DNA from: Thiothrix litoralis
Lineage (GTDB): Bacteria > Pseudomonadota > Gammaproteobacteria > Thiotrichales > Thiotrichaceae
Reading direction: 5' to 3'
DNA length: 64,000 nt
Assembly (NCBI RefSeq): GCF_017901135.1
Contig: NZ_CP072801.1
Location: 496,001-560,000 of the forward strand
Of the stretch, positions 43,650 to 47,857 are shown one piece after another. Numbering within the stretch: position 1 is the stretch's first letter; the number at the start of each line of letters is the position of its first letter. Below the pieces are notes generated by a model that ran no database searches, was not told the origin of the DNA, and saw only the letters and a list, made by a program, of their open reading frames with translations. The translations under genes were made by a program, and so were the position numbers.

Positions 43650-43856
43650 TTGATTGTATCGGATACGCTTTACCAGCAGTTGCATCGGGCGGCTTCCTTG
43701 TTCCATCAACCGACTGAAGCCATCATCCTTGACAGCCTGCGCCATGCCCTTCCACCCATTTTTGAGGATATTCCCGCTGGCTATCAGGATGAAGTTTTTC
43801 CTTTGCTGGCGATGAATGATCAGGAATTGCTTCAGGAATCCCGCCGGGTTTTATAG
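43650..43856 (+). CDS. Small hypothetical protein, possibly truncated
   Basis: A 68-residue frame starting with TTG (AGGA five bases upstream) and reading VSDTLYQQLHRAASLFHQPTEAIIL, then PPIFEDIPAGYQDEVFPLLAMNDQELLQESRRVL. The N-terminus is antitoxin-like. The PP-x-x-D-I/V-P-x-x-x-Q-x-E pattern is reminiscent of ~130-residue proteins common in cyanobacteria and filamentous sulfur bacteria that carry a further C-terminal helical part, so this could be a shortened version. No toxin partner follows; the TIR gene is 77 bases downstream. Confidence 0.5.
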   Translation: MIVSDTLYQQLHRAASLFHQPTEAIILDSLRHALPPIFEDIPAGYQDEVFPLLAMNDQELLQESRRVL

Positions 43857-43933: not shown

Positions 43934-45460
43934 ATGCACGACATTTTTCTGAGTTATTCGACAGTAGACCGTGAGCGGCTTTTGCCGCTGGTTGTTGCTT
44001 TGGAGCAGCAAGGCTGGTCAGTGTTTTGGGATCACCGTTCTGTGCCGATTGGTAAGGACTGGCGTGAGGTCATTGAAGAAGCTGTTTGCCAATGCCGTTG
44101 TGTGCTCGTGGTCTGGTCAGAAGACTCAGTTAAGTCCAAGTGGGTGAAAGAAGAGGCTACAGAGGGTGGCAACCGTAAAGTATTGTTGCCTATCCGTGTG
44201 GATAATGTGTCACCGCCCTTTGGTTTTCGGGAAACACAAGCAGGTGATTTCATCGGTTGGAATGGAGGGGTCGATTACCCCGAATTCATCAGGTTGGCGG
44301 GTGAAATCAGGACATTGTTGGAAAAGTCTGATGCCGAGCAAGAGCGGCTAGCGAAAGAAAAAGCTGTCGCCGACCAAAAAAACCGTGAAGCTGCCGAGCA
44401 CCAGCGCTGGCTGAATGAATCCCAAGCGCGTCTCGCAGAGGAAGAAGCAGTTAAGCAAAAGAAATTGGCATAAGAGCGTGCTGCTGCACAAAAAGCCCGT
44501 GAAGAGGCAGAACGTCAAGCCAAAGCCAAGCAAGAACAGCTAAAACGCGAACAAGCCACAATCAACGACCGAGTGCCACCGGATAAAAAATTTCCGTTGA
44601 TTCCCGCCCTTCTTCTATCTACTGCTGTTTTGGGCGGAGGCGGTTATTATTGGAAATCTTCTGTGCATCAATCTAAGCCTGTTGAGGAAGAATCGCTTGT
44701 AGGGCAAGCTCCCACAGTCGTTTCCCCGGCTTCTGTTGTTCCTGAGCCTGACATGGTGGACATCCCCGCTGGCACATTCACGATGGGCTGCGTAGAAAGC
44801 CGTGATGTGGTGGAGGGTATGGATAAGTGTTATGACAGCGAAAAGCCCGCCCACGAAGTGACCCTCAATGCCTTCAAAATGGCAAAAACCGAAGTGACCT
44901 TTGATCAATGGGATGCCTGTGAAAAAGCCAAAGCTTGTCCTCATGCCGAAGATCAGGGCTGGGGGAGAGGTAATCGCCCGGTGATCAATGTCAGTTGGGA
45001 TGACATTACCCAGAAATACATTCCGTGGTTGAGTCAGGAAACGGGTAAGCATTATCGTTTGCCAACCGAAGCGGAATGGGAATATGCGGCGCGTGGTGGT
45101 GCAGATACCGCTTATCCTTGGGGTAATGCTATCGGTAAAGGGAATGCTAACTGTGACAATAGTTCGTGTGGAGACAAGTTTGAGTATACCGCGCCTGTCG
45201 GGAGTTTTGCCGCGAATGGCTATGGTCTTAATGACATGAATGGGAATGTGTGGGAATGGGTAGAGGACAGTTGGCACAGTGATTATAAAGGTGCGCCAGC
45301 GGATGGTAGTGCTTGGGAATCTGGCGGTAGCGCCTCCGGCGTGTTGCGTGGTGGCTCATGGTACGGCGGTGCGCAGGATGTGCGTTCCGCTAACCGCAGC
45401 GACGGCACGCCGGATAATCGGTACTACGGCATCGGGTTCCGCCTCGCCTCAGGTCAATAA
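43934..45460 (+). pseudogene. TIR - coiled coil - TM - FGE/lectin-fold protein, DGR target (one in-frame stop)
   Basis: A 508-codon reading frame broken only by TAA at 44471-44473 (codon 180). Residues 1-130 are a TIR domain (HDIFLSYSTVDRERL; likely NADase Glu E73 in SKWVKEEA). Then come a Glu/Lys/Gln/Ala coiled coil (~133-213), a membrane segment (FPLIPALLLSTAVLGGGGYYW), a linker, and an FGE-sulfatase (C-type-lectin fold) domain from PDMVDIPAGTFTMGC through YRLPTEAEWEYAARGG and GNVWEWVEDSW. Its end is a DGR variable region. As it stands only TIR plus half the coiled coil (43934-44473) is made, unless the stop is read through or is recent; internal re-start at GTG 44573 is possible. Confidence 0.8.
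45338..45460 (+). other. DGR variable region (VR) at the 3' end of the FGE domain
   Basis: The last 40 codons read GVLRGGSW-YGG-AQDVRSANR-SDG-TPDNR-YYG-IGFRLASGQ. The three variable triplets are TAC GGC GGT (45362-45370), AGC GAC GGC (45398-45406) and TAC TAC GGC (45422-45430). Every variable codon ends in C or T, and all but the third-base T are reachable from AAC by changing A only (that codon from AAT). That is the signature of adenine mutagenesis of an Asn-rich template (GGSW-NNN-AQ...). The surrounding residues are the invariant lectin-fold scaffold. Confidence 0.75.
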
Positions 45461-45591
45461 GCCGCTACTCAGGGCGTAGCATAGGCAGCGAGCCGGAGGC
45501 GGCTCTTGTGGCGCGGGCAGCGTAGCCGAAGTCAGGCGCGTTGCGGGCAGCGCCAGACTTTGGTGGAGCAGACCGAGCCACTCTTCGGGGT

Positions 45592-45623
45592 GCAGGGGTT
45601 TACCCCTGCGCGGCGCATTTTTT
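45592..45623 (+). other. GC-rich hairpin downstream of the variable region
   Basis: GCAGGGG and CCCCTGC (45592-45598, 45603-45609) form a perfect 7-bp stem with a 4-base loop TTTA, followed at 45618-45623 by a run of T. DGR targets often have a GC-rich short hairpin with a 4-base loop after the VR that helps retrohoming; a simple terminator for the TIR-FGE gene is equally possible. Confidence 0.5.
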
Positions 45624-45663
45624 AGCAATTATCAACTTATTTTTCCCATGGAAGGGAGAGGTT

Positions 45664-46059
45664 ATGAAATTACAGTTTTTCAGCGTGGATGCGCTGGAGC
45701 CTGACAGCGATCAGGACGTGATCGACGATTTCTGCACCCGGCATCGGCTGGTGTCAGTGGACAAACGCTTTGTCGAGCGCGGGGATTTCTGCTATTGGTC
45801 AGTGTGCGTGACCTATCTGGAGCCATCATCCTCATCCAGCAAACCCACAAAAGCCGTCGATAAACGCGGGCAGGTCGATTACCGCGAAATTCTGGTGGCA
45901 GAAGATTTCGCTATCTACGCCAAATTGCGGGACTTGCGCAAAACCATCTCCGAAGCCGAAAATGCCCCGGTTTATGCCATCTTTTCCAACGCCCAAATGG
46001 CAGATATGGTGACAAACCGTGCCACTTCGCTAACCGCCTTGGGGGAGGTATTTGCGTGA
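45664..46059 (+). CDS. HRDC-domain DGR accessory protein (C-terminally shortened)
   Basis: A 131-residue protein with ATG 45664 behind GGGAGAGG. The first ~55 residues (MKLQFFSVDALEPDSDQDV then FCTRHRLVSVDKRFVERG) and the linker are those of small proteins found beside DGR reverse transcriptases. Residues ~79-131 form an HRDC domain (YAKLRDLRKTISEAENAPVY, then IFSNAQMADMVTNRATSLTAL). The usual end of HRDC (after LGEI, a GVG-ARVEKYG-F-like segment) is missing; it stops at GEVFA. HRDC/Avd-like accessories help the reverse transcriptase use its template RNA. No RT follows. Confidence 0.7.
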   Translation: MKLQFFSVDALEPDSDQDVIDDFCTRHRLVSVDKRFVERGDFCYWSVCVTYLEPSSSSSKPTKAVDKRGQVDYREILVAEDFAIYAKLRDLRKTISEAENAPVYAIFSNAQMADMVTNRATSLTALGEVFA

Positions 46060-46119
46060 GAATTTATATGCGGTCGCCCTGAGGCAGCGCCGAACGCTTG
46101 CCGGTGGGGTTTTTTCCTG

Positions 46120-46156: not shown

Positions 46157-47857
46157 ATGAAAATCCCCTATGGCATCAGCAATTTCAAAGATATGATCAC
46201 TGGCGGCTACGCCTACATCGACAAGACAGCTTACATCGCCACGTTGGAAGACGCGGGCAAATACCAGATCCTGCTACGCCCACGCCGCTTCGGCAAGAGT
46301 CTGATGCTTTCGACACTGTGGCATTATTATGACGTGTTCTACCGCCCCGAATTCAACACACTGTTTGGTCAGCTACACATCGGGCAGCACCCGACCCCAC
46401 TCAACAGCAGCTATCAAGTATTGTTCATGGAGTTCAGCGGGATTGGCGGCGAAGGCAGTGGGCGCGGGCAGATTTATCAGGATTTTGACCGTGAAGTTGC
46501 CAATTCCCTGAAGCGATTTCTGCAACGCTATGCTTATCCTGATGAAACATTGGCTGTCATCGAGGCTGAGCCATCACCCCAAAGCAAGATGAAAGCATTC
46601 TGGCGTTTGGTGGAAGGGCAAAAAATCCTGCTGTTGATTGATGAGTACGACCACTTCGCCAATACCATTTTGTCGCGAGACCTTACGCTATTTCAGGATG
46701 TGGTTGGCAAGGGCGGCTTCGTGCGCAGTTTTTACGAAACCATCAAAACCGCCACGCTGACAGGCACGCTAGACCGCCTGTTCATCACGGGCGTGACCCC
46801 GCTGATGCTCGACAGCATGACCAGCGGTTTCAACATTGGCGAAAACATTTCCCTACACGAAGACTTCAACAGTGCCATAGGCTTCACCGAAACCGAAGTA
46901 GCAAGCCTGCAACAACCCCTTGTGAAGGCTTGCCAACTTGATGCCGATGTACTGCTGGCAGATGTGAGGCGTTGGTACAATGGCTACCGTTTCCATGCCC
47001 AAGCGGAGGAAACGGTTTATAACCCCAATATGGTGCTGTATTTCCTGAAACATTTTCGTGTTAAAGATTGCAGCTATCCCGAACAAATGTTGGATGAAAA
47101 CATCGCCTCTGACTACAGCAAAATCATGGGGATGTTCGGTATCGGCAACCGTGATACCAATTTTGCCGTCTTGGATGAAATTATCAATACAGGTGAAGTG
47201 ACCGCGATGCAACGCCGCAAGTTTGATTTTGACAAAGGCTTTGATCGTGATGATTTCATCAGCCTGCTGGCCTACATGGGGTTTGTGTCATTACAGCGAA
47301 AAACCTTCTCCGGTGAAGTGTTCCGAATCCCCAACCATGCCATACAGGAGTTGTACTTCCACTATTTCAAAGTCGAGTTGGAACGCCGTAATCAAATCAG
47401 CATTCCCGGCAACACCCTGTTGCAGGCGGTAGAAGCCTTGGCTCTGCATGATGACATCCAACCACTGGTAACGGAAATGCAGCGGGTACTGCAAGTGCTG
47501 TCCAACCGTGATTTCAGTAATATGGACGAAAAACACGTTAAAACCTTGGCGTTGACCTTGCTGTACCAATCGTCGGTGTATTTCATCCAAAGCGAGCGGG
47601 AAATGAACCACAAATATCCCGACATCCTGTTACTGGAGCGTAGCCCTTATGAGGTCGAGTATCAGCACCTGATCGAGTTGAAATACGCTAAACGGGGCGA
47701 TGGCAACAAAGGTTGGGAAGCCAAGCGGCAGGAAGGCATTACACAAGTACAAGGCTATTTGCAGTTACCAGAGGTTGCCGCTTTGCCTAAACTCAGCGCA
47801 TGGGTGCTACTGGCGGATGGGGAGCGCGTTGAGGCTATACGGGTCACTGGCAAGTGA
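46157..47857 (+). CDS. AAA-ATPase-like / PD-(D/E)XK nuclease protein, copy 4
   Basis: A 566-residue relative of the genes at 17249-21119, more divergent (MKIPYGISNFKDMITGGYAYIDKTAYIATLE). The P-loop RPRRFGKS, Walker B LLLIDEYDHF and nuclease motif YPDILLLE/LIELKYAK are intact. It lies directly downstream of the DGR accessory gene, where a reverse transcriptase would be expected, and has its own promoter element. Insertion or recombination of this unit may have removed the template repeat and RT. Function of the family is unproven. Confidence 0.88.
   Translation: MKIPYGISNFKDMITGGYAYIDKTAYIATLEDAGKYQILLRPRRFGKSLMLSTLWHYYDVFYRPEFNTLFGQLHIGQHPTPLNSSYQVLFMEFSGIGGEGSGRGQIYQDFDREVANSLKRFLQRYAYPDETLAVIEAEPSPQSKMKAFWRLVEGQKILLLIDEYDHFANTILSRDLTLFQDVVGKGGFVRSFYETIKTATLTGTLDRLFITGVTPLMLDSMTSGFNIGENISLHEDFNSAIGFTETEVASLQQPLVKACQLDADVLLADVRRWYNGYRFHAQAEETVYNPNMVLYFLKHFRVKDCSYPEQMLDENIASDYSKIMGMFGIGNRDTNFAVLDEIINTGEVTAMQRRKFDFDKGFDRDDFISLLAYMGFVSLQRKTFSGEVFRIPNHAIQELYFHYFKVELERRNQISIPGNTLLQAVEALALHDDIQPLVTEMQRVLQVLSNRDFSNMDEKHVKTLALTLLYQSSVYFIQSEREMNHKYPDILLLERSPYEVEYQHLIELKYAKRGDGNKGWEAKRQEGITQVQGYLQLPEVAALPKLSAWVLLADGERVEAIRVTGK

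Follow-up and report, generated by a model that had tools for sequence, protein, structure and literature searches.

The window analysed here (64,000 nucleotides, bases 496001-560000 of the Thiothrix litoralis genome, which is one contig of 4,284,843 bases and estimated 100% complete) carries a gene for a protein with TIR and FGE parts, followed by an HRDC gene and a short element of the kind that closes DGR cassettes. The features, in window coordinates, are as follows:

43934..44473, + strand: TIR domain and start of a coiled coil, 179 aa, closed by an in-frame TAA at 44471-44473; WxxxE at residue 70
44573..45460, + strand: second half of the target, in the same frame as the TIR part, with a hydrophobic segment and an FGE / C-type-lectin-fold domain (PF03781; 2y3c)
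45326..45460, + strand: former variable repeat (VR); variable codons 45335-45337, 45362-45370, 45377-45379, 45398-45406 and 45422-45430; private non-adenine changes at 45338 and 45379
45445..45475, + strand: VR-type homing end CAGGTCAATAAG and following sequence, common to genome G052 and, partly, G055
45664..46059, + strand: HRDC accessory gene, 3'-truncated, ending LGEVFA where relatives continue INGVGDAKLEKYG or similar
46047..46081, + strand: approximate position of the putative deletion junction; missing are the HRDC 3' end, the reverse transcriptase (RT), the template repeat and the 5' half of the terminal element
46082..46116, + strand: scar, consisting of the 3' half of the hairpin that follows the template in type-1 DGRs
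46160..47857, + strand: AAA-ATPase_like / PDDEXK_9 gene adjoining the scar, of a family with 24 matches in this genome

The earlier note had read 43934-45460 as a single frame encoding a TIR domain, a membrane segment and an FGE domain. The parts hold up: the TIR domain matches PF13676 (TIR_2, E 3.9e-22), the FGE-sulfatase domain matches PF03781 (E 6.6e-56), and the hydrophobic stretch FPLIPALLLSTAVLGGGGY lies upstream of the latter. The single frame does not, as the TAA at 44471-44473 breaks it, and the FGE part is an ORF of its own (295 aa, first start codon GTG 44573). PDB relatives of the FGE part include Treponema denticola variable protein 1 (2y3c, E 4.4e-17), and the target is predicted from its sequence to have a C-type-lectin (FGE) fold with the VR at its C end. 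The best PADLOC match of the TIR part is PDC-S66 (E 2.7e-12), a candidate family. Going by what is known of these families, the FGE part would be a sensor and the TIR part an effector; given that a coiled coil and a membrane-type segment link it to the TIR domain, the FGE part may have lain outside the cytoplasm, signalling to the TIR.

The locus was compared across 63 genomes of the order, T. litoralis included (G and L numbers denote genomes and loci; G051 is T. fructosivorans, G056 Ca. T. singaporensis and G058 Thiothrix sp. STA_22). Complete DGRs in this set consist of target, HRDC, RT and template, with IGSLTSQ and YMDD in their RTs. The complete type-1 DGRs, L080 (G059), L081 (G057) and L085 (G040), are ordered target, HRDC, RT, template and post-template element, and L080 occupies the place orthologous to the window locus. 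The window locus shares with them the target, a truncated HRDC gene and part of the post-template element, but the RT and template that all three retain are absent. Target layout varies among them, from overlapping ORFs in G059 to one frame in G057 and two ORFs split inside the FGE in G040.

Substitutions in the window VR are directed to template adenines. YGG (45362-45370), SDG (45398-45406), YYG (45422-45430) and D (45377-45379) stand where the G059 template repeat has NNN, NNN, NNN and N (translations RGGAWNNNAQNVRSANRNNNTPDNRNNNIGFR for the template and RGGSWYGGAQDVRSANRSDGTPDNRYYGIGFR for the window VR); the earlier note had placed the three triplets at template NNN positions, and this was right to the codon. 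Compared with the same template, 16/30 adenines are changed and 6/78 other bases (Fisher p 8e-7), and over a wider 117 columns the counts are 21/35 and 10/82. For the counts of 16/30 and 6/78, each VR was paired with whichever template gave proportionally fewest non-A differences, a choice that favours the DGR reading; the best-scoring template gives 17/34 A and 14/95 non-A, which counts against it, as does the fact that the closest template in the 63 genomes is just 78-82% identical to the window VR. Among 23 VR candidates, three (L087, L088 and L164) were dropped because they gave no usable alignment, and the other 20 had p values from 1e-14 to 8e-4. Comparison with the orthologous G052 gene gives the same picture: 19/35 A sites and 2/82 others differ, although dS between the two FGE cores is 0.155, and both non-A differences are private to the window among eight sequences compared. 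The earlier note had held that its reading would be refuted by a genome without a template and without an excess of A-position differences between strains; no template was found (see below), yet the excess is there, between related species. The homing end also has the form of a VR, CAGGTCAATAAG, as against CAGCTCAA or TAGCTCAA in complete templates.

An ordinary FGE-domain gene, in which NNN-like triplets arose by chance or by normal FGE variation, could in principle give a similar impression: RGGSW and GFR motifs are common to FGE proteins, and two ordinary FGE tails of the T. litoralis genome align weakly to the templates with some excess of changed adenines (16/28 A and 24/80 non-A; 16/28 A and 20/64 non-A). 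Part of the A/non-A asymmetry therefore comes from the conserved FGE scaffold alone, which counts against a relic, and because these two tails show an A excess as well, the telling mark of a VR is its low non-A count and not the A excess by itself. By that mark the genes separate: non-A differences are 6/78 in the window VR and 1/95 in each of three further VRs of the genome (described below). In a control covering both strands, L003, L006 and L009-L013, the other seven FGE loci in T. litoralis, score no more than 28 against the best of seven templates, while the four VR-bearing genes of the genome score 67-92. Taken with the HRDC neighbour and the post-template element, and with no relative lacking a DGR history seen to have the same tail at non-A sites, this leaves an ordinary FGE gene a vanishingly improbable explanation.

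The gene after the target is of HRDC type (PF00570, E 7.6e-8, profile positions 2-48 of 68), as the earlier note had proposed, though it is truncated and probably starts at ATG 45664, preceded by GGGAGAGG, and not at 45541. It encodes 131 aa, compared with about 163-172 aa in relatives with a full-length or gapped RT; the G055 gene encodes 195 aa. A functional DGR has an accessory gene (Avd or HRDC), and the window has an HRDC gene with its 3' end cut. Shortly after the cut end lies the right half alone of a conserved element that L079, L080, L081 and L084 carry some 100 bases beyond the template or what is left of it. The whole element can fold as a hairpin (z -2.15 in L080 and -2.26 in L081, against +0.97 for the window piece; what follows the type-2 template in L086 gives -2.88). 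Its 18-base core occurs six times in the 63 genomes (in the window, G054 twice, G055, G057 and G059), always at type-1 DGR or TIR-FGE loci and nowhere else, with 0 occurrences of the reversed control, although the pattern was drawn from these same loci. Given that the end of the cassette is still present, a deletion seems to have removed RT and template from the window locus.

Neighbouring sequence ties this locus to its relatives on both sides. The upstream flank (43655-43852) is shared at 83% with L080, where the cassette is complete. The corresponding place in G052 is without the HRDC gene and the AAA gene, and its downstream flank is 98.8% identical over 755 bases; the intervening stretch in G052 holds repeated palindromes (by eye) and a small ORF that matches no Pfam family. 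No source was found for the roughly 35 junction bases in the L080 cassette, where the best match is just 7 bases. The window locus has, at one place, a VR-bearing target together with cassette remains, with RT and template missing, as would be expected of a relic DGR. The AAA-ATPase/PDDEXK_9 gene was considered as a further part of the system; its family has 24 matches in the genome, so it is probably unrelated to the DGR. Genes of this family stand beside FGE genes also in L089, L192 and L193, an association that may be due to chance.

Searches of the whole genome extended to the chromosome what the earlier note had said of the immediate surroundings, that RT and template are missing beside the target. 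It had proposed a search for a DGR-type RT, and none came to light: a profile of seven DGR RTs gave 0 matches in this genome at E 1e-5, nor was an RT with [IVL]GxxxSQ and YxDD found. The same profile recovers eight full-length RTs above 500 bits in seven of the other 62 genomes, seven of them members of the profile itself. The single RVT_1 match in the genome was rejected as an RT serving the target, since it belongs to a type XIII retron and has the motif QGAPTSP (PADLOC E 2.4e-179); RVT_1 is sensitive enough to detect two such DGR RTs on which it was tried, at 56 and 74 bits. This retron RT (L002 8320-9879, at about 1.62 Mb) adjoins a large gene of 1165 aa. The proposed search for a template repeat matching 45338-45460 was likewise empty. 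With the window VR, the type-1 template and the G052 VR as queries, the window VR itself was alone above threshold, and the type-2 template found just three VRs; in one of these searches 13 of the 18 first-look candidates of the genome were scored, and in the others all. A template elsewhere in the genome was rejected on this basis, as the four queries gave VRs alone above threshold.

The three VRs found by the type-2 template lie at two further places, one of which is scarred like the window locus. Two of them lie in FGE genes that flank a gap at 888-892 kb of the genome. The gap opens with an HRDC gene start (ATGAAGCACAAGTTTTTC), followed by other sequence, a template fragment of 23 bases (21/23 identical to the G051 template, a score reached by none of 2,000 shuffles) and post-template sequence that matches G051 at 93% over 101 bases. 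No HRDC relative other than that of the window was found in the genome. At this second probable relic DGR (L189 7175-8249 and 9454-9577, about 889.2-891.6 kb) the first FGE gene, of 1031 aa, stands behind AAA_5 and trypsin-like genes, and the order runs FGE gene, HRDC start, template fragment, post-template element, DUF559 gene and second VR-bearing FGE gene. Comparable arrangements occur in G055 and G061, where an HRDC start is followed within about 10 bases by sequence from beyond the post-template element. The third VR is in an open TIR-FGE fusion of 403 aa (L190 6030-7241, about 431.0-432.2 kb). Both recognisable cassettes of the T. litoralis genome are gone, and four VRs are left.

These three VRs look very fresh. 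Against the template on the G051 plasmid they differ at 15/29, 18/29 and 18/30 adenines and at 1/95 other bases each, the single exception being the G/C that separates VRs from templates at the homing end. Among themselves they agree at 70/70 non-A positions, against an identity of 61-67% for the flanking codons and of 47-50% for the third positions of these codons. Given near-perfect agreement at non-A positions beside diverged flanks, mutagenic homing from a template of this kind ran until recently in this lineage, and homing active not long ago counts against a relic. (The second VR of T. fructosivorans, in the complete type-2 locus on plasmid pTfr446, L086 9480-9640, compares badly at 32-33/70 because of a one-base, frame-breaking deletion.) The window VR, with its two private non-A changes, seems on a rough estimate to have been frozen longer than the other three.

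Diversification could still take place in trans, with RT and template on a plasmid or genomic variant outside the assembly or in complete variants within the population. The complete type-2 cassette of T. fructosivorans sits on pTfr446, whose template the three VRs match at 94/95 non-A sites, and both trans action and coexisting complete variants are reported for Thiohalocapsa PB-PSB1 (PMC10907252); complete copies could persist in the T. litoralis population in the same manner. A collection of plasmids searched with the G059 RT gave 2,953 matching records, all below 60% identity (39% for the best among the matches listed), and pTfr446 was absent from the best 20; viral contigs with an FGE domain yielded ten relatives at no more than 44% identity. 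Trans action would have to be squared with a genome that is one contig and estimated 100% complete, with cassette remains in the chromosome at these very loci, with two private non-A changes in the window VR and with a stop codon that breaks the target. We regard it as very unlikely at this locus.

The window locus is, in our view, very probably a relic: the frozen target of an extinct DGR. In the ancestor, a target (TIR, coiled coil, hydrophobic segment and FGE with its VR) would have been followed by HRDC, DGR RT, template and terminal hairpin. By homology with known systems, RT and HRDC would have made cDNA from the template RNA, placing random bases at adenines, and this cDNA would have replaced the VR, giving new binding faces to an FGE sensor joined to a TIR effector. 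A deletion (or replacement) extending from within the HRDC gene halfway into the terminal hairpin would then have removed all that lay between, leaving the VR fixed as it last stood. The VR would since have acquired two changes away from template adenines, and a stop codon now parts effector from sensor. The relation of VR to template, the lack of RT and template in the assembly, the scar and the stop can be read directly from sequence; the order of these events, the loss of function and the sensor and effector roles are the parts of this account that reach beyond it. The earlier note had spoken of a hypermutable sensor joined to a TIR effector: an origin as a DGR target and the TIR effector domain are borne out, and present hypermutability is not.

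Loss of the cassette need not mean that the target is dead. A domesticated receptor, in which the cassette was lost and TIR-FGE was selected as a sensor of one specificity, acting through two proteins or through stop readthrough, would fit the separate, overlapping TIR and FGE ORFs of G055 and G059. It would also fit the retained WxxxE motif, the six FGE cysteines, which lie in three neighbouring sets spaced as in G052 and G051, and the FGE core, where dN/dS against G052 is 0.31. HRDC and TIR likewise have low pairwise dN/dS (0.16-0.18, with dS above 1 in most pairs), so that there is no sign of decay, which counts against a relic but may simply stem from the period preceding the loss. Pairwise dN/dS values blend the periods before and after the stop and the cassette loss; this weakens them as support for domestication, and dating the loss by them was rejected for the same reason. 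Moreover, no clear ribosome site precedes GTG 44573 (by eye), and G052, G057 (L081) and G051 have single intact TIR-FGE frames. One genome per species was compared, and the stop codon and deletion are known from one genome of this species. On balance domestication seems doubtful, though it deserves more credit than diversification in trans.

The relic reading agrees with two bodies of published work. In T. denticola, HRDC serves as DGR accessory beside a TvpA-type target, as in the window, and isolates without RT and template have leftover targets whose VRs differ from relatives' templates mostly at adenines, which were read as leftovers of lost DGRs (PMC4891356). As far as the portions of that paper available go, 62% of targets there carry lipoprotein signals, and TIR fusions and cassette junctions are not seen; the window differs in that the deletion scar is still visible at the locus. 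In multicellular bacteria, degenerate DGR loci missing RT or template, some with MITE-like arrays in place of the RT, trans action and CLec/FGE sensors fused to or neighbouring TIR, trypsin-like and MoxR-like partners have been described (PMC10907252), and the degenerate loci and the partners have counterparts here. One complete locus is kept per class in the systems covered by the portions of that paper available, whereas no complete cassette was found in the T. litoralis genome; Thiothrix is not named in that paper's main text. FGE-type domains linked to DGRs have also been placed in conflict systems (PMC7159879). The literature search, together with the available portions of these three papers, turned up no Thiothrix DGR, no such scars and no genome with four VRs and no cassette.

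The locus allows a DGR to be seen after its death: the template of a relative stands for the ancestral state, the VR for the last product and the scar for the way in which the machine was lost. It also carries a warning, in that VR-like tails without an RT are possible relics until RT and template are found. Complete, broken and absent cassettes occur within one genus that has cultured members, which opens both loss rates and the fate of frozen sensors to study. VR- or template-like matches are present in 13 of the 16 genomes of the genus and absent from G050, G060 and G062. Full-length RTs of this lineage occur in five (G051, G054, G056, G057 and G059) and broken ones in two (G055, which also has a full-length RT of a more distant kind, and G058, whose RT has an internal gap); six (T. 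litoralis, G048, G049, G052, G053 and G061) have no RT of this lineage above 100 bits, and some genomes of the genus carry other RTs at 60-75 bits. Conceivably, Thiothrix repeatedly gained and discarded the HRDC-RT-template unit, so that a TIR- or AAA-linked sensor was randomised and then fixed by deletion. Such a cycle of diversifying and locking is unlikely in our estimation; if it were real, the frozen VRs would document which specificities had been selected.

Other loci of the comparison set show further ways in which cassettes have come apart. At L079 9181-9789 (G055) the RT breaks off at about 160 aa, and its reading frame continues into the 3' half of a template, ending TDNRNNNTPDNRNNNIGFRLVLS. 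At L096 6925-7179 (G054), the VR of a TIR-FGE gene continues into a template-type end and the post-template element, and HRDC and RT are both absent; from its sequence this looks like recombination between VR and template. Among the best 80 of 91 loci with HRDC-family relatives elsewhere, a DGR RT match is present in 71 and an FGE domain match in 77, an association that favours the relic reading of the window locus; the nine without a DGR RT match (L224, L225, L237, L255, L259, L261, L267, L280 and L282) may be further relics, cut contigs or misses. Lastly, RTs only 26-44% identical to the type-1 RT lie beside FGE genes at L195 8767-9861 (on a G051 plasmid contig) and L197 6225-7186 (G055), one of them broken, and possibly represent a third DGR lineage.
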